From NCBI RefSeq assembly GCF_020520425.1, contig NC_079491.1, forward strand, positions 21,319,449 through 21,383,448: DNA of 64,000 nucleotides, given 5' to 3'. The position numbers and the translations under genes are program-made. Within the stretch, counting starts at the first letter, position 1. Each line of letters opens with the position of its first letter. Below the pieces are notes generated by a model. That model saw only the letters and a list, made by a program, of their open reading frames with translations. It made no database searches and was not told the DNA's origin. The DNA comes from Spinacia oleracea. Its lineage: Eukaryota; Streptophyta; Magnoliopsida; Caryophyllales; Amaranthaceae. Positions 150-46,709 of this stretch are shown piece by piece.

Positions 150-842
150 TGTTTATGCCAAATTTCGTCTAGGGGCGATCTTTGGCTTAGGTCGACACTA
201 ACTAAGCGATAATCAAATAAGGGAAGACAAAGAGAGACACGACACAGAGAAGTGTTGACGCGAAAAACCCAGGAATAAGGTAAAAAACCGCGGATAGCTA
301 TGAGGCTATCAATCCACTAAGTTTCCTATATGATTGTTTGTATCTTATTCTAGAAATCAATGTAACAAAATATAAATAACGAATACAAGAATGATTTGAA
401 TGCTTTTATGGCTTGAGAGTATGAGAGCTTCAGTTTTTGTCCCCCGTTTGTCTTCGTCTTCGTCCTTTTATAGGAATTTTCCAACGGTCTGGTTGGTTGA
501 GAGAATCCCACAAAGATAGGGATATCTTTGTTGCACGTTTCTTTGGTCTTCAACTGACTCCACGCTTCTCGCGCATGCCTTGGACTCGTTCCTGCTATCA
601 TGACGGCGCTGCCCATCGTGGGCTTTAGGTTAACTTATCTTTATTGGCCTGCCCAGAGACGACGCGTCTCTACGTTCTTGCGCCTTGTCGTCTGTCCTTC
701 GTCGTCTATGCCTCGTCGTACGACGCCACGTCGGACGTATCTTCCTGGAACTATGCTTACCTGCGACACGACAGAACCTAGTTGACACGACATGATCAAA
801 CGTTAGTGCGGTTATGTCGTTAGTCCAAAAAGTGGGATAACG
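150..842 (-). repeat. 3' LTR of the first Gypsy element
   Basis: Near-identical to 9434-10126 with no length difference. On the minus strand it should start TG and end CA, but the first base here is C (plus-strand G at 842), while the other LTR keeps the normal TG. A TATA-like motif, CCTATAAAAGG on the minus strand, lies at about 464-474. An 88-codon minus-strand reading frame inside the LTR (350-616) has no recognisable domain and is probably not a gene. Confidence 0.95.
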
Positions 843-1149
843 GTTTGCCCCCAATTGTGAATTTGCGGAGTCATACAGAGCGAAAGAAACAATTTAAAAT
901 TTAAAAAATAAAAAACCGTCTTCAACTGCCTAGTTCGTGGGACAAACCGTTCGGAATTCCAGAGTAATAAATATCGATTCGCGACATGCAATAAAGTTCT
1001 TCACACCAAGATTTTTCAAAAAATTTCTAGATCCGAAAGCAGGAGAGAGAAGAGGGAGAGAGTGAAGTCAATTTTCGCACTGAGTTTGCTCGATTTCAGG
1101 TAAAATTTACTTTCTTTTTTCGATTTTCTTGTAGATTTTTGTAAGTGAG
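843..1149. promoter_or_regulatory. Polypurine tract and presumed leader of the antisense gene
   Basis: On the minus strand, bases 843-858 read as a purine-rich tract (AATTGGGGGCAAA) directly before the 3' LTR. This is where plus-strand DNA synthesis is normally primed. On the plus strand the rest precedes the antisense gene. It is AT-rich at 890-920 and purine-rich (GAGAGAAGAGGGAGAGAG) at about 1040-1060, as in a plant 5' untranslated leader. No convincing TATA box was found, so the promoter is not located. Confidence 0.5.
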
Positions 1150-3442
1150 ATGGGTAGATCTAAGTCGGTTGTAGTGAGAGGAAAGGGGGAGTCGGGATCC
1201 ACTCGGGTTAAGTCCCTTAACCCGATACATTCTACTGTGGTGGACCCGGCGGCGTTTGTTGAACTTGCTGGTTTGCCGCCGTCGGCGGAAGTGAAGATTC
1301 CCGGCTCGGACGAGGAAGCCTTTGACTGTCCAGAGGGGTATGTGGTTATGTACGAGTATCCGTTCACAATTGGCTTCAAATTCCCTTTCACTCCTCTAGT
1401 TAGATCTTTTATCGAGGTTTTCCATTTGAGCCCGGGTCAGTTGATGCCCCAGATATGGCGGGTTTTCACGGTGGTGCACGGAGTTACTGCAAACTGGCGA
1501 GCGCCGTTTGACCTGTCTGACTTGATGTATACTTACGACCTAGCGCTGCAGAAGTGTTGTAGGTATACCTTGGTCACGAAGAAGGGGAAGACGAACTTAG
1601 GTGTTGGTTTAGGTGTGAACGACAGGGGTTGGCAGAGTCGTTTTGTCTTCGTAGGCAAAGATTCTCTGGGAGATAAAGGGCGGTTTCTGGTCGAGGGATG
1701 GACGACGGAAGGTAAATGTGCTGTTTTGTCTTTGTTTCTCGTCGTTTTACTGAACGTCGCCTTACTTGGTTTTGTTTTGCAGTTGTCAAGGCGTCGTCGT
1801 TGACTGAGTTGAACGCTGATTCTGAGGACAAGTATCGGAAATTCTTGGGTTATTCTGTCGAGGATAGGTCTTTTAGTCGCGACGGGGAGTTTTTAGACGA
1901 GCAGGAGGTGAACCGGTCAGGCGACGTCGCCGAGGAGGAGGAAATAGACGAGGAATCAGGTCAACTGACTCGTCGTCGGAAAAGGTTGGATTTGCTTGAA
2001 GAGGTAGTGGAAAACTCGTCGTCCGCCGAAGGTGAAGTAGGCGATATGGCTGACAACTCAGGTATTTGCCTTCTTTTTTTTTTTTTTAATTTATTTCGGG
2101 GTTTGTATATATTTTTGTTTTTGCTTTGGATAGTGTTTGACCTTGATCTTTTGTGTTGGGTGTAGAGCACACTTTGTCGTCTAGGCCTGTGTCAAGGATG
2201 TCTCAGAGCGAGATTCAGGAGCGTGCGAGGAAGCGATTGAGGTCGTCCTCGACTTCTGGTGGACAAGGTATGACGGTCGTACCTCGGTTTTCTGCGATAG
2301 GTTCGTCGGCCGAGACGCCTGTCGTCATAGGAGCCGAAGGCTTTCATCCGATTGCTTCGTCATCGCCCCCACAGTCGTTCAAGGCGTCGTCTGCTGCTGT
2401 CGACGTTGGTAAAGTGTCTGCTTCGTCGGCCAAGAAGCGTCCTGCTGAGACGAATCCTGTCGAGGATACGGTTATCACTTTGCCCCCAGGCTTCTTGGGT
2501 GTTGAAGAGGCGTCTGTTATATGGCCTTTCGCTGATCGCTTGATCTTGCCTACGACGTATCGACGATATCACGAGGTGGATCCTCTTCCTGTCGCGTCGG
2601 ACGCCGCTGAACTTAGTCTGCGGGTGAGTTTTATTTAGTTTTTTCTTCTTTTTTGTTTGCAAAAGATGTGTGTTGTGTAAATCTGTTTTGGCATTGGTTT
2701 TGCGCAGGCGTCGCAGGCTGCCTTGGCTGTGCGTAGGCAATGTTCGTTGCTGTGTGACGAGGTGACGAATGCGAGGCAGCTGACGGCGACGGCGAAGAAG
2801 GCGGCCGTGTCGTGGGAAGCGAAGTGGAAGGCTGCTGAGAAGAAGGTCGTGGACCTCGCTGCGGTGGTTAAGGCCAAGGGTGATCAATTGAAAGGTAAGG
2901 ATAAGCAGTTAGCCGACGTGGCTAAAGATCTGGAGAAAGTGAAGGAAGAGCTGGCCTCGACGACGGAGGAGTTAGATGGATTGAGGAGCTTGTACGACGC
3001 CCTGCAGGAGGAGGCGAAGGACGTCGAGGCTCTCGCTATATGGAGGACGCGGGCGCAAATGATGTACTCCTGCTTGATTGAGGAGACTAGCCTTTGGCCG
3101 TGTCAGAAGGAAGTGGACGACTATCTGGCTAATGGCGGTACCATGGCTGACCTGTCGGTGCCTGTGGTGGATTCAGAAGGGTTAGCGAAGACGGCTGACA
3201 CCGCCAGTACTGAGGCGACAGAGGTGGATGCAGCCTTGTTGGTGGTGGATGCACCTGTTCCGGAGCAAGAGGGGGAGGTGTTAGCTGTTGGGTGCGAAGA
3301 GGAGGCTCTTGTCGTCGTTTCTCAAGACGAGACGTTGGACGTGGCGTCGGTGGAGGTGCCAGTCGTGACTGACGCCGTCGTGCCCCCAGAGCAGGAGTCG
3401 GAGCAGGAGGTCGTGGCCTCTACACAAGAAGAAGGGATGTAA
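1150..3442 (+). CDS. Four-exon antisense gene of a Tat retrotransposon (PF04195-like, coiled coil)
   Basis: Predicted exons are 1150-1711, 1783-2061, 2166-2623 and 2708-3442. All three introns (71, 104 and 84 bp) are GT-AG, and the phases join exactly to give one open frame of 677 aa ending in TAA. Residues about 55-185, including PEGYVVMYEYPF and LSPGQLMPQIWR, resemble the domain called putative gypsy type transposon (PF04195). Exon 2 is acidic. Exon 3 holds basic clusters such as RARKRLR that could be nuclear signals. Residues about 445-550 in exon 4 are a Lys/Glu/Ala-rich coiled coil, and the C-terminus is acidic. The gene lies antisense to gag-pol, as in Grande and Retand. The function of this family is unknown; a regulatory or DNA-binding role is only a guess. 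It has no stop or frameshift although gag-pol in the same copy has several. Confidence 0.85.
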
Positions 3443-4028
3443 TAGTTTGTAGTTTTTCGAATTTCTGTTGGTTTTTGTGTTTTGTTTGTGAATTTCTTTA
3501 CTCGTCGTCGATGGCGACGACGAGGTGGTTTGGATGACTTGTGTTTTGTTTTCGTGTTTTGGATGTTTTTACTCGTCGTCGGTGGCGGCGGCGAGGTGTT
3601 TGGATAATGCTTTGTGTTTGAATTTCGGAAGTTGTGGCCTTAGGGATCGCGCAATTTGTATTTTGCTATATAAGTGTGTTCCTCTTTTTTTCTTATTTGC
3701 GTGTGTTCTTTGTGACTCTTGTGTTTTGAAGCTTTCGTCGTGCGTCGTGTGGCATGTGTCTTTGAAATGGTGGCATTACATGTATGTGAAACCGTACCTG
3801 TATCGGTTGCTCGTTTGTTAATCACTTGGGATTCATTTTCTGTCATGCGTCGTGTGTTATCTTCTGCAAAAGAAAACATGGGTTGCTAGGAGGATTGGAC
3901 GTTGGGGATGCCAACGGCCCTCCGATGCCTAAGTCAGTAATAATTCCAAACAAATAAAGCGATAAAAAATAAGGAAGAAGGTAGGAACGATGGTACGACA
4001 ACTGATAAAATTGGCTACGACGGATGTT
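3443..4028. other. Spacer between the tails of gag-pol and the antisense gene
   Basis: The two converging genes end on either side of this stretch. It contains an imperfect duplication of CTCGTCGTCG-GGCG-rich sequence at about 3500-3530 and 3568-3597, capable of weak hairpins, and otherwise T-rich DNA suited to a 3' untranslated region. Short frames here show no domain. Confidence 0.5.
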
Positions 4029-7000
4029 TTAAAAGTGATAGAGTTTAAGATGTGTAGCATTCCAGCTTCGGGGGGCCGACTTGCCGTCTTTGGTGACGAG
4101 CCTGTATGCCCCCTTTCCGACGATTTTATCGATCAAGTATGGTCCTTCCCAAGCTGGCGCGAGTTTACCTGTGTTTAATTCTTTTGTGTTTTGGAACACT
4201 TTGCGCAACACCCAGTCGCCCTCCTTGAACATTTTTACTTTGACGTTTTTGTTGAAGCATTTTGCCACAATCTGCTGTTGTGACGCCATTCTTATCAACG
4301 CTGCTTCTCTGAAGTCTTCTGTGTTGTCGAGGTTTTCACTAAGTTCGACGTCGTTCTGCTCTGGCGTCATGAGTCCATATCGTGCACTGGGCAGCGTCAC
4401 TTCGGGGGGTAGTACTGCTTCGCACCCGTAAACGAGTGAGAAGGGAGTCTGTCCCGTCGCCGTCCTAGGCGTCGTCCTGTTGGCCCATAGGATGGATGGC
4501 AGCTCTTCTGCCCATCGTCCCTTCTTATCGTCCAGCCGCTTTTTTAGTGATGCGATGATTGTTTTGTTGCTGGATTCCGCCTGTCCATTTGCTTGGGGTA
4601 TCTTGGCGTTGACGTCTTTAGCTCAATGTTCCACGTCTTGCAGAAAGCCCTAGTCTTGTCGCTGATGAATTGGGATCCGTTGTCGCATATGATTTCTGAT
4701 GGCACTCCGAATCTGCATATAATGTTAGTCCATATGAACGAACATACCTCTTTGTCTCTTACTTGTTGGAACGCACCTGCTTCTATCCACTTAGAAAAAT
4801 AATCTGTTAGAGCGAGCATGAAGACCTTTTGTCCTGGGGCGACGGGTAGTTTACCGACGATGTCCATTCCCCATTTCATGAAAGGCCACGGAGTTAAGGT
4901 GGGGTGTAAAAATTCAGATGGTTTATGTGTCATACCTGCGTGTCGTTGACATTTGTCGCACTTAGCTACGTACCTCATTGCGTCCTTGAGCATCGTTGGC
5001 CAATAGTATCCGTTTCTTTTGATTCCGGTTGACAGGCTTCGTCCTCCTTCATGTCCGCCACATTCTCCTTCGTGGTATTGCTTTTGTAGTCTTTCCCATT
5101 CTGTTTTTTCTGCGCATCGCATCAACATTCCGTTCGCTGATCTTTTAAATAATATACCCTGCAAAATAACATATCGTGAAGCTTTGAAAAGTATCTTCCT
5201 GGCTTCGAGCTTGTCGTCGGGTAGGGTTTCATGTGTTAGGTAGTCGAGGATGGGCTTGGTCCAGCTGTCGGTGTTTGTGGTTGATAGGACGAGGCTGGCA
5301 TCTTGGGGTATGTCTTTTTCAATAGCGGGTGACAATAGGTGTACTAGAGGTATGGTCGAGAATGGCGACTTTCTGAGTGCGGATCCTAGGTTGGCAAGGG
5401 CGTCGGCTTGCGTGTTCAGGTCTCGTGGAACTTGTTTAATGGAGAGGGGTTTGAATTTGGAGGCTAGTTTTTTTGCTTTTTCGAGGTACAAGGTCATTTT
5501 CAGGTCTTTAGCCTCGTAGTCGCCGTTGATCTGGTTGACGATTAATTGTGAGTCGCTAAAGATGTTGAGTCCACTTGCCCCCAATTTTTCAGCTAGCGTC
5601 AACCCGGCGATTAATGCCTCGTATTCTGCTTCGTTGTTTGTCGCTTTGAAGTCGCAGCATATGGCTTGTGCTATCATGTCCCCTTGTGGTGACTTTAGCA
5701 CGACGCCTAGACCTGCACCGCGAAAGTTAGACGAGCCGTCGACGAAGAGCGTCCATATCTCTTCTACGTTATTGATGAGTTTGACTTCGTCGTCCGCTAT
5801 TTTCTCCAGGTCGGGGCTAAAGTCTGCCACAAAGTCTGCTAGTGCCTGCGATTTCACCGTCGTTCTTGGTTGGTATTTGATGTCGAAGCTTCCTAGCGCC
5901 ATCGTCCATTTCTCCATTCGACCTGTTAGTTCTGGTCTACGCATCACAGACTTGATTGGATAATTAGTCATCACCACTATTTGGTGAGTTTGGAAATAAT
6001 GCCTTAGTTTTCTAGCTGCAGTAACGAGTGCTAAAACGAGTTTTTCGAGGGAGGAATACCTGGTTTCCGCTTCTAGTAGCGACTTACTTATGTAGTAAAT
6101 AGGTAGCTGTTGCGTTTCGTCTTCTCGGGCTAGGACCGCGCTGACTGCTGTGGAGCTGACGGCTAGGTACAGTTGTAGGACTTCGCCTTCTTTGGGTTTG
6201 GACAGGAGGGGTGGCGACATCATGTATTTTTTGAGGTTTTGCAAGGCTGCTTCGTGGTCGTCGGACCAGTCAAAACCTTTATTTTTACGCAAGACGTCGT
6301 AGAATAGACGACACTTGTCCGACGACCGCGAGATAAAACGATTTGGTGCCGCCACTCTTCCTGTCAAGCGTTGTACCTCTTTTATGTTACTGGGGGGTTG
6401 AATGTTGATGATTGCGCGCACCTGGTCGGGGCTAGCCTCGATTCCTCTTTGGGTGACGATGTAACCTAAAAATTTCCCTGCAGACACTCCGAAAGAACAT
6501 TTAGTTGGGTTGAGTTTCATACCGTATTTTCTCAATATGTCGAAGGATTGTCGTAGGTGTTCGATATGGTCGTCGGCCTTCCTTGATTTTACTAGCATGT
6601 CGTCGATGTAGACCTCCATCGTGTCTCCAAGTTGGTCTTTGAACATTTTGTTGACCAATCGCTGGTACGTTGCACCTGCATTTTTAAGACCAAAAGGCAT
6701 GACTTTATAACAATAAATACCTCTGTCTGTTACAAAAGATGTTTTCTCCTGGTCGTCTGGGTGCATAAGGATCTGGTTGTATCCGGAGTAGGCGTCCATA
6801 AATGTTAGTAGCTCGTGTCCAGCAGTGGCGTCGACCAGGGCGTCGATGTGCGGCAGCGGGAATGGGTCTTTAGGGCATGCTTTGTTGATGTCTGTGAAGT
6901 CGATACAGACTCTCCACTTTCCATTCTTTTTACTGACGACGACGACATTTGCTAACCAATCTGGATATTTGACTTCTCTGATTTTCCCGGAGTCTATCAG

Positions 7001-9375
7001 TTTTTGGACTTCTTCGTCTATGATTTTATTTCTCTCAGGCGCGAATTTTCGCCGTTTCTGTTTCACTGGTTTGAAGTTGGGGTCGACATTGAGTTTGTGG
7101 GTGATGATGTCTGAACTGATTCCTGTCATGTCCTCGTGCGACCAAGCGAAGCAGTCCGAGTTTTCTCTTAGGAATGACACTATCTGACTTCTGATATTGT
7201 CAGGCAGCGACGCTCCGATCCTTACTACTTGGTCTGGCTTTGCCTGATCTAGCGTAATTTCGTCGATCTGTTGGTCGTCGGGGTCGTCTGCCGTAGACCC
7301 TGGCTGTAATTGCTAGATGGATGACTTTGATGGTTTCAGCGCTGTTTCATAACATTTCTTTGCGTCCCTTTGCTGTCCTTTGATTTCCATGACTCCCCAT
7401 TTGGTTGGGAACTTGATTGACTGGTGGTATGTCGACGGCACCGCCTTCATTTTGTGGATCCATGGTCGTCCCAAAATGACGTTGTATGCTGATGGGCAGT
7501 CGACGACGTTGAACTTGGTCATCACATTAACACCTTCTGCGTACGTAGGCAGCTATATCTCTCCTACTGTACGTAGCGATTCTCCACTGAATCCTACTAG
7601 GACTGTCGACCTTCTGATTATACTTTTTTCGTCTAGTCCTATTTCCTGCAGAGCCTCTAGGAACAATACGTTTGCTGAACTGCCGTTGTCGATCAATATC
7701 CTTTTGATGAGAGCGTTGCCTATTGGGAGCGATATGACTAGCCCGTCATGATGTTCCTGTATTGTGTCGGTTGAATCTGAGTCGTCGAAGGTTATTATCA
7801 TCGCCGCTAATGACTTGTCGAGTGCTACTTCGTCTTCGGTCTGCCCCTCCTTGACGGCTTCAGATTCGCCCCTGTTGATTTTTTTAGCTGCAGAAGAAGT
7901 TAGTCCACATATATCTGAACCACCAGAAATAACGTTTACCACTTTTTCGAACGTGGGCGGGGCTGGTCGGTCGCCGCTTGGTGCTGGGTTGGGTTGGGAG
8001 CTGCTATCCTTGTTGTACGTCTCCTTTCCTTTGTCGCTCAGTAGGTCCTTCAGGTGGCCTCTTTTCAATAGATACGCCACCTCCTTTTTGAGGGAGATGC
8101 ATTCCTCGGTTGTGTGGCCATTGTCGCGGTGGAAGTCGCACCACCTGCTCATGTCCTTCATAGAGTCTGGTCTGTCACTCTTCTTAGGCCATCTGACGGT
8201 ACCACCTACACTTTGAAGGGCGTTTACCACGCCTCCGATGTCGACGTTGAAGCCATACTCGGAGATGGGGGGATAAACGACCCGTTCATTCCTGTAAACA
8301 CTGTTAGTATCATCATATTGATTGACATTTTGTACCTGACCCTGGCGGTTGTATGGTTGATGTCTCCAGCCGTTGTTCCTTGGGGTGTACAACCTCCTGT
8401 CGCTGCTGCCCCCTGCTGGTCGCTGAGAAACCATTCGTGTAATCTCGTCGTCTTCAATCCGCATCTGGGCCGTAGCCCTCGATCTGACTTCTTCGAAGTT
8501 TGCACAGGGATATTTGGTTAGTTCCCGGTACAGCTCTGAGTTGGGGACGAGACCTCTCTTGAATGCTTCGATGGCTGTCCTGACATCACAGTTTTTTATG
8601 CTAATTTTTTCACAATTAAAACGGTTAAAATAATCGCGTACCGACTCGGTAGTTCCTTGGACCAACCGATAGAGGTCACTTGTTTATTTCTCCAACTGGC
8701 GACTGCTGGCGAATTGTTGGTAGAAGGCGTTGATGAGGTCGGACAGGCAGAAGATAGATCCAGGTGTTATGTTCATGAGCCATTCCAGGGCTGCTCCTCG
8801 AGGGTTCCTCCGAAGGATTTGCACATGACGGGCTCGACCAGGTCGTAGGGGATGCCGATCTGCCACATTCGCTGCTTGTAGAAGTTGACGTGTCTGTATG
8901 GATCAGACGTTCCGTCATACAGGGTGGTCCAGGTAGGGAGTCGGAGCTGGTGTGGTACCGTCACCCTAGCGATCGCTTCACAGAACGGCGATGCTGCATA
9001 CCCGTCGGTCGGCTCGGTCTCCACGGGCGTGGGTGCCCCCGGCAGTTTGGTCATCAGCTTCATCATCAACGAGCATCGCTTCTTCATGTGATTTTCCATC
9101 TTATTTAGGCGCTTGGTGACGGGGTCCGGTATTGCTTCATCCTTTTCCTCATGTGGCTCCTCGCCGTCGGACAGGTCTTCAGAGTCGCCAATCATCTCGA
9201 ATATCAACTTCTTCGGTTTTGCACCTGGCTTGTAACGCGATTGATGCTTGTTACTTTTCACGGATTCGAGCTCCTTCTGGAGGTTTTCAATGGAGGCCCT
9301 TTCTTGGGCCAGCTCTGCTTGGGCCTTCTCGTAGGCCGCTTTCATCTCTGCGAGCGTCATCTCTTTAGTAGTCAT
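4029..9375 (-). pseudogene. Gag-pol polyprotein of the first Gypsy element, broken
   Basis: One long frame read from ATG at 9375 about 40 bases after the primer-binding site. Order: Gag, with an N-terminal coiled coil and a CX2H...HX4C finger (WCDFHRDNGHTTEEC); protease with IDNGSSANV; reverse transcriptase with YIDDMLVKS; RNase H with FVDGSSN; integrase with an HHCC finger (ending CDKCQRH) and a DDE core (MDIVG, CDNGSQF); and an integrase tail ending at 4029. Five lesions are visible: a frameshift near 8790, stops at 8684-8686, 7553-7555 and 7313-7315, and a frameshift near 4600 in the integrase core just before its conserved Glu region. The copy cannot make a complete polyprotein. Gag, protease and pol share one frame, as usual for Tat elements. 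The family normally supplies particle, reverse transcription and integration functions. Confidence 0.93.
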
Positions 9376-9412
9376 GGTGTGTAGGGTGATTTTGCGTGAA
9401 ACCTAGTTAATG

Positions 9413-9430
9413 TCCCCACAGACGGCGCCA
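9413..9430 (-). other. Primer-binding site of the first Gypsy element
   Basis: On the minus strand this reads TGGCGCCGTCTGTGGGGA, three bases from the 5' LTR. It begins TGG, complementary to the CCA end of a tRNA. Similar sites are common in plant Gypsy elements; I do not assign the tRNA. It fixes the orientation of the element. Confidence 0.85.
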
Positions 9431-9433
9431 AAC

Positions 9434-10126
9434 TGTTTATGCCAAATTTCGTCTAGGGGCGATCTTTGGCTTAGGTCGACACTAACTAAGCGATAATCAA
9501 ATAAGGGAAGACAAAGAGAGACACGACACAGAGAAGTGTTGACGCGGAAAACCCAGGAATAAGGTAAAAAACCGCGGATAGCTATGAGGCTATCAATCCA
9601 CTAAGTTTCCTATATGATTTTTTGTATCTTATTCTAGAAATCAATGTAACAAAATATAAATAACGAATACAAGAATGATTTGAATGCCTTTATGGCTTGA
9701 GAGTATGAGAGCTTCAGTTTTTGTCCCCCGTTTGTCTTCGTCTTCGTCCTTTTATAGGAATTTTCCAACGGTCTGGTTGGTTGAGAGAATCCCACAAAGA
9801 TAGGGATATCTTTGTTGCACGTTTCTTTGGTCTTCAACTGACTCCACGCTTCTCGCGCATGCCTTGGACTCGTTCCTGCTATCATGACGGCGCTGCCCAT
9901 CGTGGGCTTTAGGTTAACTTATCTTTATTGGCCTGCCCAGAGACGACGCGTCTCTACGTTCTTGCGCCTTGTCGTCTGTCCTTCGTCGTCTATGCCTCGT
10001 CGTACGACGCCACGTCGGACGTATCTTCCTGGAACTATGCTTACCTGCGACACGACAGAACCTGGTTGACACGACATGGTCAAACGTTAGTGCGGTTACG
10101 TCGTTAGTCCAAAAAGTGGGATAACA
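9434..10126 (-). repeat. 5' LTR of the first Gypsy element
   Basis: 693 bp, TG...CA on the minus strand, followed on the plus strand by the ATTCT duplication (10127-10131). A TATA-like CCTATAAAAGG (minus strand, about 9748-9758) is the likely promoter of the genomic transcript, which would run leftward through gag-pol. Confidence 0.95.
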
Positions 10127-13443: not shown

Positions 13444-16400
13444 ATAAGTCTGTCTCCTTTCTTCCTTTTAAATTTTATTAAATGCTGGCTAGTTGTGGAG
13501 TCATAAGGTGGATGCCAACAACTGTGATCTGTTGTTGGCCAGGGGTGTTGTTGTTTGGATGATGATGTTGTGATTTGTTGTTTGGATGATGATGTTGTGA
13601 TTTGTTGTATGGATGTTGATGTTAGATAATGATGTTGGTATAATGATATTGATAATGTCCCCTGATAATGATATGGATGTTGATGTTAGATAATGATGTT
13701 GTGATTTGTTGTATGGATGTTGATGTTAGATATTTATTGTATGGTTTGATGGCTTAATGTCCCCTGTTTTTTGGTATGTTGTCTGTCTGATGAATATGTT
13801 GCTTTGGTGAGTATGAGATTGGATCAGTACACCTATGTTTTGGATTAGTAAATGCATGAAATGAATATAATTTGGGGAAATACTTTGAGTTATTTAAGTC
13901 CTCTCAATGTGGCCTTGTGTTGAATGCTTAATGTCCAAGTATGTCCCTTTAGGATAAAGTAATGTCCCTTTATTGTTTGTGATCGACGATGAGTCTTTTT
14001 AATGCTGAGGAACAAGTCTTATTAACCACAAATGCTCGTGCTGCCATTAGTATCATTAATGATATTTCTCGGGCGCTAAGTGTTTGTGGTTTGGATTTGT
14101 TTCAATGATGCTTGGGGACATTCTGAGATCAATATTAGGAGGTTTGTGATGTTCAATGATGTAATTGTTGATATTTTGAGATCTATGTTTTAATAATTGT
14201 CCTTTAACTTCTTCTGTCAAACGGAGTGAATGTCATTTCACACAATCAAATGTGAATATCAATCATTCCATTTGGCAGAAGAATGTTAAAGATATAATAG
14301 TATTGAAACTAGTTGATCAATGATGTGTGTCAATATGTCTGAGAAATGAAACCCTACATGTTAATGATGTGCTTAATGATTGATGTCCCATGAATCAGTA
14401 GAGGTCTGTGATGAGTCTTTCATTTGATGAGGTTCAACCCTATGTTTTCATTTGATGCATTGCTGATTGTTATTGTTATGTTTGATCTGTGATGAGTCAT
14501 CATTTGCTGAGACTCAAATCCAATGTTCCAATACCACTTGTGCACCATTAGCATCATTGATGCTCTTTCGGAGCTAAGTGTTAGGGGATAGGGTTTGTGT
14601 CAATGATGCTTGGGGACATTCTGAGATCTTATGTCATGTTAGATATGTTGTGTTAGTGATTTGTTTTGGCTTTCCGGTCTTTTGCCAGTTTTAATGTGTT
14701 AGGATACAATGAAATTGAATCCTTCACATATAAATTGGCATTAGACGGGAGAGGCAATTAATGTCTTGCAAAACAACATGTATGATTGTGGGGTTAATGA
14801 TATTCAAACCTTGTGCATTCTTGCCTTGTGCATTGTTAGCATCTGTGATGAGTCTTCATTTTATGAGTGTCAAACCCTATGTTTTTCAATCAAACTCATG
14901 CACCATTAGCATCCATGATGTTTTTCAGGAGCTAAGTTTAATTGGAAAGGGTTTGATTCAATGATTTTTGGGGACATTCTGAGATATTTATGATTCTTTA
15001 AGAACAGTTTGTTTATGTGAGGCATATTTCATGTGTTATCAATGATGAAATGGTTGTTTTAGTCAAATTTTACTTCTTTTGACGCATCGGTTTCTAAGTG
15101 GGAATAATTTCCATCTGAAAATGATGTGATATTAATATTTATTTCCATTTAGAAGCCGATGTGTTTAGAGTTGTGATTTTGTATGTCCTGAGTTTCTTGG
15201 GCCCTTAGTATCCTCTGTCAAATGGAGTCAGTTTCCTTAATCTTTTTAAATTGTGTTAGTAATTTGCTCCATTTGGGAGTAGGATATTAATGTCATAAGC
15301 TTCAATTATGAAAAACAACTTATAACTGAGAATAACAACAATGAATAAATTATGTCCCCTTGATCATTCATGTTGTAATTCACTACCTTGCCTCTGCTGC
15401 CTTGTTCTTGTCTTGTCTTTCATGTGTTATCAATGATGAAATGGTTGTTTAAGTCAAATTTTACTTCTTTTGACGCATCGGTTTCGGAGTGGGAAGAATT
15501 TCCATCTGAAAATGATGTGATTTTATTCTTTCTTTCCACTTCGAAGCCGATGTGTTTAGAGTTGCGAATTTGTATGTCCTGAGTTTCTTAGGCCCTTAAT
15601 ATCCTTTGCTTAATGGAGTCAGTTTCCTTAACATTTTTAAAGTGTGTTAGTAATTTGCTCCATTGGGCAAGAGGATATTAATGTCATAAGATTCAATGAT
15701 GAAAAACAACTTATAACTGAGAATAACAACTAGATGGACCCTTGCCTCTGCTGCCTTGTTCCCTTATAACTGAGAATAACAAGAGGATATTAATGTTTGC
15801 ATGTCCCCTTGCCTCTGCTGCCTTGTTCTTGCCTTGCCTCTGCTGCCATGTTTTAATTTCCATCATGTGTTATCAATGATGAAAATGTTGCCTTGTTCTT
15901 GCCTTGCTTCTGCTGCCTTGTTGTCCCCTTGCCTCTGCTGCCTTGTTGTCCCCTTGCCTCTGCTGCCTTGTTATTGTTTTGCTTCTGCTGCCTTGTTCTT
16001 GTTTTGCCTCTTCTGCCTTGTTATTGTTTTGCCACTTCTGCCTTGTTCTTGTTTTGCCACTTCTGCCTTGTTCTTGTTTTGCCACTTCTGCATTGTTCTT
16101 GTTTTGCCACTTCTGCCTTGTTCATGCCATTCTTCTGCTGCCTTGTTCATATTGAAAGTGTTTATATTCATGTGAATAATAGTGATGAATCATAGTGTTT
16201 ATTGCCTGTGCTTATAAATCTCAGCATGTGAATAATAGTGATGTGAATAAGAATGATTAAAACAAACTTGAATAAACTTAAACATGAGATTCATTCATTG
16301 ATGCTTCCAAAAGATATGCTTACAAAATGTTTTGCCTACATGTTATGCTTGCATTTAAGCTTACAAAAGTGAAACATTGGTTGTACTTGTCAATTTCAAA

Positions 16401-18690: not shown

Positions 18691-20490
18691 GGTCCCCCTC
18701 CAATGAGAAGATCTTTATAATGAGAAAAATTAGAAGCGATCTAAGCCGTCCACATAAAATAGATCAGACGGCCAGATTAGCACGTGAAAAATAAAAATAA
18801 AGAACGCATAAACCAAACCCAGGCAATTACTCAAACAAGATTTTCCCTCCTTCTGCTTGCGGACTACTCTTTTATGGCGGACATTAAAGCTCTCTACTCT
18901 CATTAATCAATTGTTCATCTTCTCGCCAAACGAAATTTCTGAATTGATGTCAACCGTTCCCCAACATGAAGGTATTTTGTTCTATTTGTTGTAATCAATT
19001 ACTTTTAAATTTTGAAATTAGGCTTTCAAAATTATTGAAACAATTACAAATTGAACCAATTAGAAAAATTTGACTGCGAAATTAGTGAACTTTCATTGCG
19101 AAATTGTTAAATTTTGATTCCGAAATTGTTAAATTTGGATGTGCTCATGTTGAATTTTCGGGGTTTAAGCCATGTTGTATTATTTTAAAGTGTGGGTATA
19201 AGCACCATTCAAATGATTGCAAAACTAGTAAATTTTGATTGCGAAATTGTATACTTTGTATTTGCTCATGTAGAATTTCGTGGGGGTTTAAGCCCTGTTG
19301 TTGAATTTCTTAAAGTGTGGGTTTAAGCCCTGTTGTTGGAGTTTGTAAAGTTGGGGGTTTAAGCACCCAAAAAAAAAGGAGTAAATGAGCAAAAATATAA
19401 TATGATCTGTGTTTTGCTAATTTCAACAACTCTTGCTAATTTGCTCATGTTTTGCGTAAATGAGCAATTAAGATTATGAGCGAAATTCATAAATTTGACT
19501 GTGAATGAAGAAATATCAGAAAGAATATGATATGTTATCGAGTAGTTATTGTTTGTGTGCGAGGGAGGTCTTGATAAAGTAGTTATTGTTTGTCCGCGAG
19601 GGAGGTGCCAATTTTTCTTACAGACTACCCTTCCGTAAAATCCTACCTTGATTCTTTGTGTGCAAATGAGCAAACTATAAATCTTATCAAACCAAGTTCG
19701 CCTGCACAAACCAAGCCTTTCTGTTTCTACGTCAGTTTATTTTCTCAGTTTATTTTCTGCATCAGTTCATACCATTTTCCTTTCAGTTCGGATTTGATAA
19801 GCTAAGGCCGTGAGGTTTGGCAAACTTTGATGCACTAGACATTCGGAACAGGACTGCCATCTTTGGCAATGAATTTGATTCCATCATTCACAATCATAAC
19901 CAAAATCTGTAGAAGAAACAAGAAAGTCATATCGCAAAATCATGGTTCCTTCATTGAGTTGTTTCTGATTTGAGTAAGAGTGGTTCATGTAATATGAAGT
20001 AGTTTTTGTTGCAGAATACTGATTCTACATATTGGTTTTTTTTTTTCTCTTCTGAATCTTTGGAACAAAGAGTACAAAAAACTCAGTGAATGACATTTTA
20101 ATGTTAGCAAATTCTTTACTGGTGCTCCTAATTTCAGTAATAACAGGTTGTCGTGAATGACATTTTAATACTAGCAATTTTTTAGGAATGCAGATGAGGA
20201 GTTGCAGCAGCAGCAACATATTAGGTATCCGGAAGCAGGTGCATAAGCCATCTTTATATACAGGGCGTAGAGAAGCTGGTTACCCAGACAGTCCATAGCG
20301 TTTCTGCTGAACTTACTTGTCCAATTGAAAATCTAGAATAACAAGCTTTGAAATGCAACATGGTTCTGTGCATTTGATTTGACAAAGTTGGACATGTGTG
20401 TCTTCAACTTGCACGGCTGCAACAAGAAGTCGCGTATGACTTCTTATGGAAAAGGATGCCGGAAGCAATCGTGGTGCTAAGTCGCAACAC
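18690..20490. other. Left arm of the capturing element, no gene identified
   Basis: AT-rich sequence with loose repeats of ATTGCGAAATTGT and GGGTTTAAGC (19080-19360), and the first scattered TTTGCTCAT motifs. Short frames (for example 19590-19805 plus) show no domain. Confidence 0.4.
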
Positions 20491-20499
20491 CTTCTTAAA

Positions 20500-22015
20500 A
20501 TCGAAACTATAATATTTGCTCATTTTGAAACAATGAGCAAAAGTTTAAAATCGGACTTTAATATTTGCACATTTAGACACAATGAGCAAAATTTAAAATC
20601 CGAACTTTAATATTTGCTCATTTAGAAACAATGAGCAAAAATTTAAAATCCGAACTTTAATATTTGCTCATTTAGACAATTAGCAAATATTTAGAATCGA
20701 AACTATAATATTTGCTCATTATGACATAATGAGCAAATATTTAGAATCGAAACTATAATATTTTCTCATTCAGAAACAATAAGAAAAAAAATTAAAATCC
20801 GAACTTTAATATTTGCTCATTTAGAAACAATGAGCAAAAATTAAAAATCCGAACCTTAATATTTTCTCATTTAGAAATAATGAGCAAAAATTTATAATCC
20901 GAACTTTAATATTTGCTCATTTAGACATAATGAGCAAATATTTAGAATCGAAAAACTATAATATTTGCTCATTTAGACACAATGAGCAAATATTTAGAAC
21001 CGAAACTATAATATTTGCTCATTTAGACCAATGAGCAAATATTTAGAATCGAAACTATAATATTTGCTCATTTAGACACAATGAGCAAATATTTAGAATC
21101 GAAATTTAATATTTTCTCATTTAGAAACAATGACCAAAATTTTAAAATCCGAACTTTAATATGTGCTCATATAAAAACAATGAGAAAATATTTAAAATCC
21201 GAACTTTAATATTTGCTCATTTACACAATGAGCAAATATTTAGAATCAAAACTATAATATTTGCTCATTACATACAATGAACAAATATTTAGAATCGAAA
21301 CTATAATATTTGCTCATTCAGAAACAATAAGAAAAAAATTTAAAATCCGAACTTTAATATTTGCTCATCTAGAAACAATGAGCAAAATTTTAAAATCCGA
21401 ACCTTAATATTTGCTCATTTAGAAACAATGAGCAAAAATTTAAAATCCGAACTTTAATATTTGCTCATTTAGACATAATGAGCAAATATTTAGAATCGAA
21501 AAACTATAATATTTGCTCATTTAGACATGAGCAAATATTTAGAATCGAAAAACTATAATATTTGCTCATTTATACATAATGAGCAAATATTTAGAATCGA
21601 AAAACTATAATATTTGCTCATTTAGACACAATGAGCAAATATTTAGATTCGAAACTATAATATTTGCTCATTTAGACACAATGAGCAAATATTTAGAATC
21701 GAAACTATAATATTTGCTCATTTAGACACAATGAACAAATATTTAGAATCGAAATTTAATATTTGCTCATTTAGAAACAATGAGCAAAAATTTAAAATCC
21801 GAACCTTAATATTTACTCATTTAGAAACAATGAGCAAATATTTAAAATCCAAACGTTAATATTTGCTCATTTAGACATAATGAGCAAATATTTAGAATCG
21901 AAAAACTATAATATTTGCTCATTTAGACACAATGAGCAAATATTTAGAATCGAAACTATAATATTTGCTCATTTAGACACAATGAGCAAATATTTAGAAT
22001 CGAAACTATGATATT
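20500..22015. repeat. Array of ~50-bp palindromic tandem repeats
   Basis: About 30 units. Each contains TTTGCTCAT, a 6-10 base loop such as TTAGACACA, and ATGAGCAAA, so every unit can fold into a hairpin. Units are joined by two alternating spacers, TAGAATCGAAACTATAATA or TAAAATCCGAACTTTAATA, and vary slightly in length. Related motifs recur outside the array at 23530-23770 and 25225-25530. Confidence 0.9.
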
Positions 22016-22295
22016 TGCTAATTTTCTTGCTTTCTGTTTTGGGTTTTTTTCCTGATAATTTCTTGCATAGTTGTTCATTTTTGTGTTTTTTGGGAAATCT
22101 AAGTGATTGTTGAGGTTAAATTGATTAATTTCCTTTTTTCTTGTAATTTCATGAATAGTAGTTAACTTTTGCTTGGATTTTGGGAACTCAAAGTCATTTT
22201 TCCTGGGTAAGATGGCTAGTTTTCGGTTTTTTGGTGATTTCAAGTTTTTACTTTCTTGAGATAGATTCTTGAATTTGTTTCAATGTATTTGGGTG

Positions 22296-32744: not shown

Positions 32745-32878
32745 TAGCTAAAAAGACCAAGGTCAACTCTTTACCATCCCAACTCTCGCGCCAGAATTCT
32801 ATGTCGTCTCCTAACCCAGCTTAATTAGGCCAATACACCAGAAATGAACTCCTGACTCCTAATATCATATCATCATCA

Positions 32879-34948
32879 ATGGCTGAACTCCCAGCCCATC
32901 TCTCTGCAAAGAAATTGTTGATACTCCTCAAATCCCAGAAAAACACCAAGAATGCTCTGTCGCTCTTCGACTCAGCTACCCACCATCCAAACTACAACCA
33001 CACTCCCATCGTCTACCATCACATCCTTCGCCGACTCACTGATCCCAAACTCGTCAATCACGTTACTCGAATCATCGATTTAATCCAAACCCAGAAATGT
33101 AGCTGTTCTGAAGATATTGCTTTGACTGTTATCAAAGCTTACACTAAGAATTCCATGGCTGAGCAAGCTCTTAATATTTTTAAGGAAATGCCCCAGATTT
33201 TCGGGTGTCAACCGGGTATAAGATCGTATAACTCAATGCTCAATTGCTACGCACAATCTAATCAGTGGGATAAGGCTGAGTCTTTCTATAATTATTTTCA
33301 GACATCGGGTGTTATACCCAATTTAGAAACTTTCAATGTTTTGATTAAGATTTCGTGTCGGAAACGACAGTTTGATAAGGCACAGAAGCTTTTGGATTGG
33401 ATGTGGAGTCATGGAATATTTCCAGATAGTTATAGTTATGGGACTTTGATCCATGGACTTGTGAAATGTGTTAAATTATCGGATGCGTTGAAGGTGTTTG
33501 ATGAAATGTCTGTGAGAGGTCTTACCCCTGATGTCACTTGTTACAATATTTTGATTGATGGGTATTTGAAATCTGGTCTTGTTGATGAAGCGAAAGAGAT
33601 TTTCCATAGGCTAGTTACTGATTCTGCAGTTTATCCGAATGTGGTGACTTACAATGTCATGATCAATGGCCTGAGCAAATGTGGTCATGTTAGTGAGAGT
33701 TTGGAGTTTTGGCGGCGTATGAGAGTAAATGAGCGAACATTAGATGTGTTTACTTACAGTAGTTTGATTAATGGACTATCCAAGTCAGGAAATGTCAAAG
33801 AGGCTTCAATGGTTTATGCAGCGATGATTGAGAGTGGGCTTCTTCCTGATACTGTTACTTGCAATGTTATGCTTCATGGATACTACAAAGCTGTAATGAC
33901 GGAAGAGTTTTTCAAGTTATGGGAGTTTATGACAAAAGAGGATCTTGTTAATACCGCAAGTTTTAACATTTTCATTAGGGGCTTGCTTGAAAACGGGAAG
34001 GTGGATGAAGCACTATCTATTTGGGAATTACTGCCTGAGAAAAGTTGTAGTAGTGATTCGACAACATATGGTGTCCTGATTCATGGGTTGTGTAGAAATG
34101 GATACCTAAACAAGGCTCTATCAATCTTGAAAAGGGCAGAGGATGGAGGTAAGGCAGATGTTTATGCCTATACACCATTAATTAATGCACTGTCTAACAG
34201 CGGAAGGCTTATGGAAGCTGTAAGTCTGGTAGATATAATGGCTGACCGTGGACATATTTTGAATTCCTATGTTTTCAATGCTTTAATAAATGGGTACATC
34301 CGAGAATCAAAAATAGAGAAGGCCATTACAGTTTATAAGGAAATGGTCAGTAAGGGTTGTTCACCAACACCTGTTACGTATAATATCTTGATAAATGGTT
34401 TGTGTAAATCAGAAAGATTTGAAGATGCATATATTCAGGTAAAGGATATGCTGGAGAAAGGTTTTAAGCTAGACTTGATTTCTTACAGCTTGTTGATAGA
34501 TGGTCTTTGTCGAAGTGGGAAGATGAACAAGGCACTTCAGTTGTGGTGTCAGATTCTAGGAGAAGGTCATAAACCTGATATAACCATGCATAATATTATT
34601 ATTCATGGACTTTGCTCTGATGGAAGACTAAACGATGCAGTGCAGTTATTTTCAAATATGAGGTGCATGGACTGCACACCCAATCTCGTTACCTATAATA
34701 CGCTAATGGAAGGATTTTATAAAACTGGTGACTGTGAAATGGCAGCTGCGATCTGGGCCTGCATTCTGAAAAAAGGAATTCATCCAGATATCATCTCATA
34801 CAATATTGTCTTGCATGGACTTTGTTCCAGCCACAGAATATTAGATTCCATAGGGTTTTTACATCATGCGGTTCATAGAGGAGTAATTCCTTCTGTTGTT
34901 ACATGGACTATCCTTGTGAGAGCTGTTTTTAGTTATGGCATTCTATGA
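32879..34948 (+). CDS. P-class pentatricopeptide repeat (PPR) protein, 689 aa
   Basis: A single intact, intronless frame from ATG at 32879 to TGA. After an N-terminal region with AKKLLILLKSQKN it consists of about 16 tandem ~35-residue PPR motifs (for example TPDVTCYNILIDGYLKSGLV and TYNTLMEGFYKTGDCEMAAA). There is no E or DYW tail, so it is P class. The whole length, including YHHILRRL, FGCQPGIRSYN and the VTWTILVRAV ending, agrees with what I recall of Arabidopsis AT3G09060, making it the likely orthologue. P-class PPR proteins bind organellar RNA for processing, stability or translation; the target here is unknown. No strong transit peptide was evident by eye. This is the clearest host gene in the window. 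Confidence 0.95.
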   Translation: MAELPAHLSAKKLLILLKSQKNTKNALSLFDSATHHPNYNHTPIVYHHILRRLTDPKLVNHVTRIIDLIQTQKCSCSEDIALTVIKAYTKNSMAEQALNIFKEMPQIFGCQPGIRSYNSMLNCYAQSNQWDKAESFYNYFQTSGVIPNLETFNVLIKISCRKRQFDKAQKLLDWMWSHGIFPDSYSYGTLIHGLVKCVKLSDALKVFDEMSVRGLTPDVTCYNILIDGYLKSGLVDEAKEIFHRLVTDSAVYPNVVTYNVMINGLSKCGHVSESLEFWRRMRVNERTLDVFTYSSLINGLSKSGNVKEASMVYAAMIESGLLPDTVTCNVMLHGYYKAVMTEEFFKLWEFMTKEDLVNTASFNIFIRGLLENGKVDEALSIWELLPEKSCSSDSTTYGVLIHGLCRNGYLNKALSILKRAEDGGKADVYAYTPLINALSNSGRLMEAVSLVDIMADRGHILNSYVFNALINGYIRESKIEKAITVYKEMVSKGCSPTPVTYNILINGLCKSERFEDAYIQVKDMLEKGFKLDLISYSLLIDGLCRSGKMNKALQLWCQILGEGHKPDITMHNIIIHGLCSDGRLNDAVQLFSNMRCMDCTPNLVTYNTLMEGFYKTGDCEMAAAIWACILKKGIHPDIISYNIVLHGLCSSHRILDSIGFLHHAVHRGVIPSVVTWTILVRAVFSYGIL

Positions 34949-38240: not shown

Positions 38241-39830
38241 TGTAGACGCTTACTTTTGTCCCCATTCCCGAAAGGGAAGGTTCGATGATGAGAACATAAA
38301 TCTCCGCTTGGCAACGCATCTCCTATAAAATGACGAATCTCAATCACCCTTTTCATTTCACCCGAACTTGCTATTTATAGAAACCTGCTAAAAATAGTAG
38401 CTGTCGTAATGGGTAGCCGCTAAAAGTGGCAAACCATAAAAAGATGGAACTTGTCAGAATTAGGTGTTGCACTCCAACATAAATCCTAAATGAGATGGAA
38501 TTTGCGGTAAGAATCCTATTCCTAGTATAATTCAAAAATAAAGAGTCACGTATTAATTAAAATCCTAATGAACCTAGAGTTCGTAACGGGCCCAGACGCA
38601 TTCCGTCACAAAGTTAATACGCGCTGAAAGACTCGGATAAGTCTCAAAGACTCCGCATGCCACGAGTCCAAACCTGACAAGGAAATACGACCCAGACCCT
38701 ATTTTCAACGCCTGGCTCTGGGCGCTGAAAATACCTGGTACGTGTTTTTTCCTAATTCTCTTTGGATTAGAGCTCTAAAATCCTATCTTTCCTCGACCTG
38801 TTTTCCTATAAATAAGACCCCAAATTCGACGTGAAACACACAATTGAATATCCTGAGTATTGACTTGAACTTCTAAGCCTAAGCCTTACGCTGCGAAATT
38901 GTTCCCGCGTTCTGTCGCAATCGATCCAAAAATCGAACAGAACGCATCCTGTCCCTTGTAGCTGAAAAACTAAGCCTGGAAACTTGAGATTCGTTAAATA
39001 AAAAGGAGAAATAGCAAAGCCAAAGCGGTTAGTTTTCTGAGAACCGCAACGCGCCCCCTCTAGGGCGCGTTGTAATATGTCCCTCACATGATTTAATCGC
39101 TTTCTTATTATCCTTTACATAATTTAACTGCTTTTTATTGTCCTTTACATAATTTAACTGCTTTTTATTGTTCTTTACATGATTTAACTGCTTTTTTATT
39201 GCCCTTCGCATGACTTAATTGCTTTCATCGTAATAAGTATGATTCAAATGCTTTCCTCACATGTTATAAAAACTGTTAAACTATCAAATCTGATTGTTTT
39301 ATCACGTAAAGGTTATACTTTGGGAAATCGAACTATCATGCTAGGTCCCTTAAATCGACTTAAAACAGATAATCGCGATCAATCTAGTATTATATGTTGC
39401 ATATTGTTAAAATCAACTCAGATTAGTTTAATAGTTAACACATGTCCCTTCAATTATTTATGCCGAGCTAGTAAGGATATCCTGCCTCTGGAGTTATCGA
39501 CGAGCGAGTACTTCTCTCGGTAGTTACAGTCCCCCGAACCCTCAATCTCTACCCTGCGGGTGTATGTTGAGCGATCCCCACACCAGGGATCACAAGGGAA
39601 CCTACGGCCGTCGTGGTCAAACATAATTGCACTCCCTTTATGTCACGATAACCGGGTTTTGTCAGTTTTTCTCATTGTCGTTAAAAGCTGAATGACGACT
39701 CCTATATTACTAGTCAAATGGGTGTAAACTCACAGGAAATCCAATTACACTTGATTTGACAAAAAAGAAACGTCACACCCACGAGGGACGAGGTCACGCA
39801 TTAGCCTCGTGCTTTTTCGACCCCCTCACA
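38241..39830 (+). repeat. 5' LTR of the second Gypsy element
   Basis: TG...CA, 1,590 bp. It has a TATA box CCTATAAATAAGAC at about 38807-38820. A ~31-bp tandem repeat (ATTTAACTGCTTTTTATTGT plus CTTTACATA) occurs four to five times at 39086-39215. It carries only half of the palindromic module found in the right LTR (38702-38731). Confidence 0.95.
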
Positions 39831-39831
39831 G

Positions 39832-39849
39832 TGGCGACTCCACTGGGGA
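39832..39849 (+). other. Primer-binding site of the second Gypsy element
   Basis: TGGCGACTCCACTGGGGA, one base after the LTR. Sites of this sequence are familiar from Ogre/Tat-type elements. It sets the plus orientation. Confidence 0.85.
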
Positions 39850-41068
39850 ACGTTAATGAAATACTCGTGCTCGTAGGTAATCAAAATAGCCGAAGGGTGA
39901 AACGATCCTACTCCGCGTTTATTTCCTTATCAAGTTGGGACGACCTGAAAATCAGCATATTAATGTGAACGGGCAGAACCGCATAATGAATCTTGGCTCC
40001 CTCAGGGAGTTTGGACTAAGGATACCCATCGCCAACCGGGGGGTGCATACGCTTCGAATGTTGTCCACTCGGCACTTTCGCTAGTAGTACACCCGTCCCA
40101 AACCCAATCGCTCGCCCACTAGGTCCCTCTCGCCTGCATGCCCCCTTGGCTTGCACTTGCGGGTTGGCCTCTTGGGCGAAATTCGTCTGTTGAAGCCACT
40201 ACCTCGACCGGGGCATGTGGTGGATCTATGATAGAAGCGGTACCAAGCTAAGCGCAAATACTAGCCATAGAGACCTTTCATAAACTACGTGACATATTTA
40301 ATTTCCAAATCCATGTTTGCAATGTAGTTATGTGTAGCGAACTACGTGACTATGTTATGTTTGTGCGTACGGATAATGCTAGACAAACAATGTTAGAGAA
40401 CCAACGACTTTAAAAATTGCCCAAACATTCGTGAACCGATTGGCCAAAGAGTTATACTAAAATACGTGTTCCGCAAACCCGAGCGATCGCCACCAAAACA
40501 AGCGACGCTCGGGATGGCCCGTAACGAATCCCATAACGCAGCCACGCGTAAAGGACGTTATTAAGCAAGCACGCAAAAACAAAGTCGCATGAACAAAAGT
40601 ATACGCAAACAGAAAACGAGTACCAGCTAGGGACGCATTTTCAGCGCCCCTGGCTGGGCGCCAAAATTTCTAAACGCCCAGCGCTGGGCGCCGAAGTTGC
40701 TGCCTGGCCTTTTGGTCAGACACAGCAGCCTCGATGCCCACGCATAAAAAATACGTAGCAAAAAACACTTTTCGTAAAAAAATATATTGCTACGAGGGCG
40801 TATGAAAAAGCACTCGATTCTAAAAGCGACTTGTAAAAAATAAATAACTCCTTGTGTCGCCTCCTATGACGAAAATGTCCGGCACAAAAACCGAACATGC
40901 TAATGATTATGAATGTCACACGGGCAAGTGTTTCGAAAATCCAAAGAATGACCAAAAAAAAGAAACCCAAAATGTACCAACCAAGAAAGTAAAAAACCCA
41001 ATAAGAGAAAGTCAAAGTCTAGACTAAGTAATGCTTAAAACTTTGGGGCCTAAACTTTAGCTTGTCTT
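39850..41068. other. Leader of the second Gypsy element
   Basis: About 1.2 kb without a gene between the primer-binding site and gag. It contains a palindromic module at 40637-40697. A long untranslated leader is usual in Tat/Ogre elements and may hold packaging signals; none can be pointed out. Confidence 0.5.
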
Positions 41069-44046: not shown

Positions 44047-45016
44047 GCCACAGAGAGCACCTTAGTAAAAAAAAAGCGCCTAGTAGTTCTTTAGATTGAT
44101 AGAAAAAAATGAAGACTTCGGATGGTCCTAAGACCCCTTAGAAAATAGGCTAATTTTTGTTTCAGTGTGTTTTCCTTACTTTCCAAATTAATAAAGGCGC
44201 AAGATTTCTCCTAAAAATTTCCATTCTAACACTAAATAAGCACTAATCATACTTGCAAAACAAAAGTGGCCCACTTTAGGCCCGATAAACAAGGTTCACT
44301 CAATCTTGAATTGTGACATCGAAACCACTTACCCAAGCCGCAAAAAAGACGCAAATAAAAATGACCAAGGCATTAAATCAGCCATGAAATCCCAAAGCCA
44401 CAAAACCAACCCCATGCAACCAAAGAAACCATAAGGAAAAGAAATCAAATCCAAACGAATTGCCCAGAAAAAGGGAACTCGCAAAATTTAAACATCAACA
44501 ACATACTCACCTTCAAGAAACACGCCTAACTTCCCAAAAAGCCTACACAAAGATCTTCATATCTTACAAACCCCAACTCCATTTTCAAAACCGTTTCGAG
44601 TCACGTATAGAAAAAATTAATCCGGACAAAAATGCGTCTCACGCTAACAGTAAAAAAAGTCTCCGAAATAGCCCTAAAATCGATTTTAATACGAATAAAA
44701 AAAGCAAGGCATAAAATGGAAAAATAAATGCAAGAACATGTGAAGCAATGCCCAGAAATCATTTTCAACGCCCAGGGCTGGGCGCTGAAATCTTTGACGC
44801 CCCAGCATGGGCGCTGAAACTCTCTGCCTGCCTAACCTTTTTCCAGAAGTGCTCGTCATTTTATCCGCACATAACGGAAAAATAACGAACACTTGGGGGG
44901 TACAACACGTATCCAGACATGCGTTCAAAAATTTTAGCCGTAAAAAAAAAAAACAAAAAAACACAAGCAGACGGGAATAATGATAACACTTCACTTATTT
45001 GACCAATTAAATAATA
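44047..45016. other. Noncoding interior of the second Gypsy element
   Basis: This is where pol would be expected, but no reverse transcriptase, RNase H or integrase motif is seen in any frame. Holds a palindromic module at 44762-44820. Confidence 0.6.
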
Positions 45017-46382: not shown

Positions 46383-46709
46383 TATGTCTCCACCTCAGGG
46401 CATATCTATTAAAATTCGGCATCCTAGAATTTATTCTAGCTAGAACTACGCACGACCTGATTCTGACAAGATACGTAGGCAATCCTTACCAAGGATTCGG
46501 TCCAATAAAAAAAACATATATACATGGTGCAAAGTGTTAGACGCATATAAAATATAAAAAAGGAGAAACAAAAAAGTGAAAATAAAAATGAAAAAAAAAT
46601 ACGCCTTTATTAAAAAAAATGATAAGAAGGAAAACAATAGTGCTAAGGAATGAAAAACAAACACAACTGAAATAAATAAAGGGGCACCTACACCCTAGCA
46701 AGAACTACA

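Follow-up and report, generated by a model that had tools for sequence, protein, structure and literature searches.

A probable four-exon antisense gene in a Retand-type Tat retrotransposon of Spinacia oleracea

A young LTR retrotransposon in the genome of Spinacia oleracea carries, on the strand opposite to its gag-pol genes, four exons separated by three GT-AG introns, which join into 677 uninterrupted codons. The element is located at the start of the 64,000-nucleotide stretch that we analysed (contig NC_079491.1, positions 21,319,449 to 21,383,448; hereafter the window, in whose coordinates all positions are given). The open spliced frame, its splice signals, its position and the type of the host element can be read directly from the DNA. 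We infer that this is a spliced accessory gene of a Retand-type Tat element that encodes a nuclear regulator, and to this statement as a whole, mechanism included, we assign a probability of about one half. In the mechanism that we propose, the antisense gene would have a promoter of its own and be transcribed in the direction opposite to gag-pol. The mRNA would shed its three short introns to give a protein of 677 residues, in which a TRP28-like head is followed by linkers containing basic clusters, then by a coiled coil and finally by an acidic tail. The protein would enter the nucleus and pair via its coiled coil, the head would bind the DNA or chromatin of the element, and the acidic tail would adjust the expression of the element.

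Exons, introns and coding signal

The sequence-only reading had proposed four exons and three GT-AG introns on the + strand, and these coordinates do give 677 uninterrupted codons: the joined exons (1150-1711, 1783-2061, 2166-2623 and 2708-3442) comprise 2034 nt, that is, 677 codons and a stop. Exon 1 contains the ATG and the head (residues 1-187), with a TRP28-like spacing at residues 75-109 and no Pfam match. Exon 2 encodes an acidic linker with the basic cluster RRRKR, and exon 3 encodes a further linker with the basic clusters RKRLR and KKRP. Exon 4 encodes the coiled coil and the acidic tail and ends at the stop. The introns are short: intron 1 (1712-1782) has 71 nt and reads AAG/GTAAAT ... 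TTTTGCAG, intron 2 (2062-2165) has 104 nt and reads CAG/GTATTT ... GGGTGTAG, and intron 3 (2624-2707) has 84 nt and reads CGG/GTGAGT ... TTGCGCAG. Plant introns are usually T-rich, and the T content of these three (49%, 60% and 52%, respectively) compares with 20-28% in the exons.

The coding frame contains its terminal stop only, whereas the other two forward frames contain 37 and 41 stops; when the sequence was dinucleotide-shuffled 500 times, the most open of the three frames always had 16 stops or more, with a mean of 25.8. When up to three GT-AG introns were allowed, the longest open chain in 1150-3442 was 2081 nt, slightly longer than the four-exon model, whereas none of 40 shuffles exceeded 917 nt. 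The same search was applied to 46 control stretches of equal length (23 places in the window, on both strands), one of which reached 2066 nt and the others 1475 nt or less.

An open frame is compatible with many different GT-AG pairs and does not by itself locate the introns, so that junction placement from the open frame alone was rejected. The junctions were instead ranked with plant splice-site weights, one junction being shifted while the other two were held, and the proposed junctions ranked first among the frame-preserving alternatives (1 of 188, 1 of 106 and 1 of 70 for introns 1, 2 and 3, respectively). Two splice signals are weaker than the others: intron 2 has an acceptor at about the 96th percentile of all AGs in the window, and intron 3 has a donor at about the 97th percentile of the GTs. 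A retained intron would terminate the protein early: the frame of exon 1 would read through intron 1 and end at 1803, just beyond it; that of exon 2 would end at 2165, the final base of intron 2; and that of exon 3 would end at 2638, inside intron 3.

Codon composition provides a weaker signal. The purine bias at the three codon positions is 0.64/0.45/0.57 in the antisense coding sequence versus 0.61/0.50/0.54 in pol, and peaks at position one in both. A codon score trained on gag-pol gave the coding frame 0.078 per codon, one of the other forward frames 0.062 and one reverse frame 0.108. When the forward frames were compared exon by exon, the coding frame was the best of the three in exons 1, 2 and 4, and another of them scored higher in exon 3. 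Because the coding frame is not singled out and a reverse frame scores higher, gag-pol codon usage was dropped as proof of coding, and the long open frame and the splice signals are therefore the principal coding evidence. Judged on these features of the sequence, the gene at 1150-3442 is very probably both coding and spliced. Alternatively, there might be no gene, the frame being open by chance or a decayed remnant, with splice sites that are cryptic. This would account for the weak codon-usage score and for the lack of any Pfam family above the cut-off; it is highly improbable in view of the length of the open chain relative to the shuffles, the first rank of all three junctions and a location that is known for such genes.

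The flanks of the gene contain further motifs. Upstream (843-1149, + strand), a purine-rich tract of the element adjoins the LTR, and motif matching finds a TATA-like ATAAATAT near 967. Downstream (3443-4028, + strand), there are two similar CTCGTCGTCG repeats, and AATAAA-like sites near 3953. From the TATA-like and AATAAA-like motif matches, a transcript of approximately 1.0-3.97 kb, ending short of pol, would be predicted. The two CG-rich repeats have self-complementary arms and are located at 3502-3596, 71 bases apart, on the 3' side of the antisense stop. In the predicted fold of 3490-3605 (z -3.37, equalled in 0 of 200 shuffles), they pair together.

Might the antisense RNA, rather than the protein, be what matters? 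It has been suggested (PMC7264820) that such RNA pairs with the gag-pol RNA, and it could feed siRNAs that limit the element; the stable CG-rich fold predicted 3' of the stop would suit this role. However, the RNA would need neither 677 open codons nor three good introns to act in this way, its duplex would be shortened by splicing, and the predicted transcript may not overlap gag-pol at all. We consider this explanation very unlikely and prefer that of a protein-coding accessory gene. On the gag-pol strand, facing exons 3 and 4, there is also a stop-free frame of 182 codons (2360-2908, - strand).

The host retrotransposon

The antisense gene is contained in an LTR retrotransposon with both ends present, which occupies 150-10126 on the - strand. 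The 3' LTR (150-842) and the 5' LTR (9434-10126), both on the - strand, are 99.1% identical over 692 aligned bases (the partner segment being 9434-10125), and when the pair is extended to the ends, 7 of 693 positions differ. The element is flanked on both sides by ATTCT (145-149 and directly after 10126), so that paired LTRs and a target-site duplication are present with gag-pol between them. If about 1.3e-8 substitutions per site accumulate each year, the insertion would be roughly 0.4 million years old.

The pol region (4029-7312, - strand) encodes, according to Pfam matches, a reverse transcriptase, an RNase H, a second (archaeal-type) RNase H and an integrase. It consists of ORFs 4544-7312 and 4029-4622, with a frame shift near 4.54-4.62 kb. 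The gag and protease region (7553-9402, - strand) has a gag match that is below the Pfam cut-off; it contains a frame shift near 8.8 kb and, in the protease region, a stop at 7553. An additional stop precedes the pol ORF that starts at 7312 and may be a natural boundary. Because its gag-pol is broken, this copy of the element is not self-sufficient.

Which kind of element is this? In the pol ORF, a Pfam search found RT_RNaseH (residues 379-476), RVT_3 (525-642) and Integrase_H2C2 (736-791) in that order, and the pol domains exceed the Pfam cut-off. A second RNase H (aRH) between the RNase H and the integrase is a mark of Ogre and Retand elements (PMC6317226), and its presence here places the element in the Tat clade, Ogre/Retand type. 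The identification of the host as a Tat retrotransposon, already made in the sequence-only reading, is supported by this aRH position together with the LTR pair and the ATTCT duplication. The antisense gene is, as had been claimed, opposite in orientation to gag-pol. It is placed between pol and the 3' LTR and does not overlap gag-pol. In the Retand survey, the region between pol and the 3' LTR, with its antisense ORF, measures 2.9-6.6 kb (PMC11963269). Here, a long region of this kind with an antisense ORF is present at 843-4028 (approximately 3186 bases, or 3.2 kb), and its size, like those of the LTR (693 bases) and the internal region (8591 bases), is inside the published Retand ranges. 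The element is probably Retand rather than Ogre, a distinction made here solely on the antisense gene and the region sizes. The plant mobile domain, found in the extra ORF of 57% of Ogre elements and hence not strictly defining (PMC6317226), had no match in the 677-residue antisense protein when hmmscan was run against Pfam.

The predicted protein

The head of the protein had been described in the sequence-only reading as PF04195-like (TRP28, Transposase_28), and in this respect the Pfam profile search did not agree. With hmmscan, the whole 677-residue protein gave no PF04195 match at E values up to 1; exon 1 and residues 55-187, searched with a limit of 10, likewise gave none, the filters of HMMER being such that most weak matches are discarded. 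Membership of PF04195 was rejected on this result, and a tentative resemblance in residue spacing alone was retained. TRP28 has six conserved positions, G21, P25, L34, P46, N47 and F55 (Vicient 2025, PMC11963269). At the same spacing, the head has G75, P79, I88, P100, Q101 and V109, of which three are identical (G75, P79 and P100) and three similar. Of 20,000 shuffled heads, 53% showed three identities when these were considered alone, and 0.08% showed three identities with all six residue classes, the classes having been chosen post hoc. We count the frequency of the identities in shuffled heads, the absence of PF04195 and the codon score against our preferred explanation, and likewise the broken gag-pol of this copy and the failure of the structure and contig searches described below to find a relative.

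More generally, no Pfam family exceeded its cut-off for the antisense protein, the matches of coiled-coil type being sub-threshold, and a search of solved structures with the head found no relative (best E 0.17). The protein has no relative elsewhere in the window. Neither a viral contig collection, queried with the head or with pol, nor a genome contig collection, queried with pol, contained relatives; these were single-sequence searches that detect close relatives only, in collections that are not plant-oriented.

Three features of the protein sequence bear on its possible function. First, four basic clusters start at residues 144, 251, 302 and 370, and these could be candidate nuclear signals. 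Second, among 45 windows of the protein, hydrophobic periodicity is at its maximum at residues 477-546 (z 3.7 and 3.3), which supports the coiled-coil tail of the sequence-only reading, with the sub-threshold Pfam matches pointing the same way. Third, the last 117 residues (561-677) form an acidic tail with a net charge of -26.

A nuclear regulator has two close rivals, in which the product either helps transposition or acts, like VANC, against silencing. Each of these roles requires a protein, and the sequence cannot separate them. A spliced and coding gene might serve the transposition cycle, either in nuclear import of the pre-integration complex, which Vicient and Casacuberta (2020, PMC7264820) discussed for antisense accessory ORFs, or as a nucleic-acid chaperone. 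The coiled coil and the basic clusters are compatible with such a role as well as with gene regulation. However, a gene on the opposite strand would be expressed separately from gag-pol, and the acidic tail seems to fit a nuclear regulator better; we think a role in transposition unlikely.

A short motif deserves mention here. With both strands considered, CGTCGTC has 17 copies in the element (9284 bases, with one LTR counted) and is absent from the following 53,874 bases, its copies being scattered over the LTR, the antisense gene, pol and the noncoding parts of the element. This count was reached in 0 of 300 trinucleotide-based simulations and in 42 of 300 tetranucleotide-based simulations; since a tetranucleotide model can generate such an excess, CGTCGTC was not accepted as a target motif and is kept as an observation only. 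VANC of Arabidopsis VANDAL, an element-encoded nuclear protein acting on its own family, binds noncoding tandem repeats of that family (PMC10398659), and we cite it as a functional analogy, with no claim of membership. By analogy, the protein described here might bind short repeated motifs of the element and remove silencing marks from family copies, and the restriction of CGTCGTC to the element would accord with this. However, the excess is within reach of the tetranucleotide model, and many of the copies are within coding parts, and we regard VANC-like anti-silencing as quite unlikely. HBZ of HTLV-1, an antisense-encoded viral nuclear protein (PMC11963269), is another functional analogy to the nuclear regulator that we favour, again with no membership claimed.

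Antisense genes and their introns

How might introns persist in a retrotransposon? Sense-strand genes lose their introns via retrotransposition unless splicing is partial, as in Ogre. On the gag-pol strand, whose RNA is the one copied by reverse transcription, the three introns described here read CT...AC and would not be removed as GT-AG introns, which would explain their persistence. The antisense gene can thus retain its introns through retrotransposition, an established logic that we carry over to this element. Plant LTR elements are generally intronless, with Ogre and EVADE among the exceptions (2025 review, PMC12786077). The introns of Ogre and EVADE are spliceosomal, as here, but they are on the gag-pol strand and affect expression of the polyprotein, whereas the introns of the present gene are on the antisense strand (PMC6317226, PMC12786077).

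Retand elements are characterised by their antisense accessory genes (PMC11963269), and the precedent for antisense ORFs in Grande- and Retand-type elements that the sequence-only reading had named is confirmed in PMC11963269 and PMC7264820. In the 63 clusters that Vicient (2025, PMC11963269) inspected closely, antisense ORFs are present between pol and the 3' LTR, with TRP28 in all but two; antisense TRP28 ORFs, for which DNA binding is predicted, are found in 97% of recent Retand clusters. Such ORFs occur in eudicots and monocots, and their function is described as an open question (PMC11963269). A regulatory effect on the element is presumed for antisense genes of this kind. That survey used ORF Finder and yielded 104 antisense ORFs (PMC11963269), whereas the present gene has four exons and is unmatched by PF04195. 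With the Retand antisense TRP28 ORFs, it shares location, orientation, aRH position and region sizes, and perhaps some residue spacing.

The gene finders FGENESH and GENSCAN permit introns. Predictions by these programs underlie the antisense ORF2 of 15 bean families (Gao 2014, PMC4093653), which in Ty3-gypsy elements such as pvRetro13 is opposite to gag-pol and between pol and the 3' LTR, like the present gene; it has 211-939 residues with some SMC matches, and we liken it to our gene by description (PMC4093653). Introns and exons are not mentioned in the main text of PMC4093653, nor does the word "introns" occur in the texts of PMC11963269 and PMC7264820. The gene23 of Grande possesses its own promoter and encodes a nuclear protein (Gomez-Orte 2013, as described in PMC7264820 and PMC11963269). 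It is an antisense accessory gene in a long 3' region, likened by description to the present gene, for which an own promoter and a nuclear protein would likewise be expected. Vicient and Casacuberta (2020, PMC7264820) called for antisense and spliced transcripts to be examined. Among the literature matches listed, none was recognised as dealing with introns in accessory genes of the antisense strand, and earlier accounts of gene23, of extra ORFs and by Kejnovsky (2006) may describe some. The antisense accessory gene is of a known kind, and its intron-split form is probably new as far as the literature found shows.

We speculate, with the odds in our judgement against it, that spliceosomal introns find a refuge on the antisense strand, that Retand-type elements share one ancient multi-exon gene with a TRP28 head and a coiled-coil tail, and that many of the surveyed antisense or "Smc" ORFs are its exons. 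On this view, the introns may also assist the antisense mRNA in nuclear export and in evading silencing, in the manner of an ordinary host mRNA. If antisense accessory genes are spliced multi-exon genes, single-ORF surveys have captured fragments, and a splice-aware re-reading of published elements, which form 122 Retand clusters in PMC11963269, would provide full-length proteins to be aligned, folded and tested, which would make their function directly approachable.

The window contains a second LTR element (38241-52117, + strand), whose LTR pieces are 97-99% identical. It has gag/protease-like ORFs at 41054-43399, with weak matches only, and no reverse transcriptase or integrase was found among the seven of its ORFs that were scanned. 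Its antisense gene (46710-48563, - strand) matches the plant mobile domain (E 0.0015) and DUF7745 (E 4.8e-5), both below the Pfam cut-offs, and this copy is broken by an in-frame stop at 48002. Within it, a candidate 198-nt segment (47697-47894) has an acceptor at the 99.8th percentile, a donor at the 96th percentile and a T content of 41%, compared with 27-32% in the flanking exons, and is likely to be an intron of this second antisense gene. The presence in one window of two different types of antisense gene with introns would make a one-off arrangement less likely.

Elsewhere in the window, an uninterrupted pentatricopeptide repeat frame of 707 codons (32825-34948, + strand; PPR_2, E 4e-158) is probably an ordinary host gene, and a piece of reverse transcriptase (53544-53984, - strand; RVT_1, E 7.8e-12) looks like a LINE remnant. 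Tandem arrays are located at 20490-22072, with a period near 50 bases, and at 15864-16178, with a period near 25 bases.
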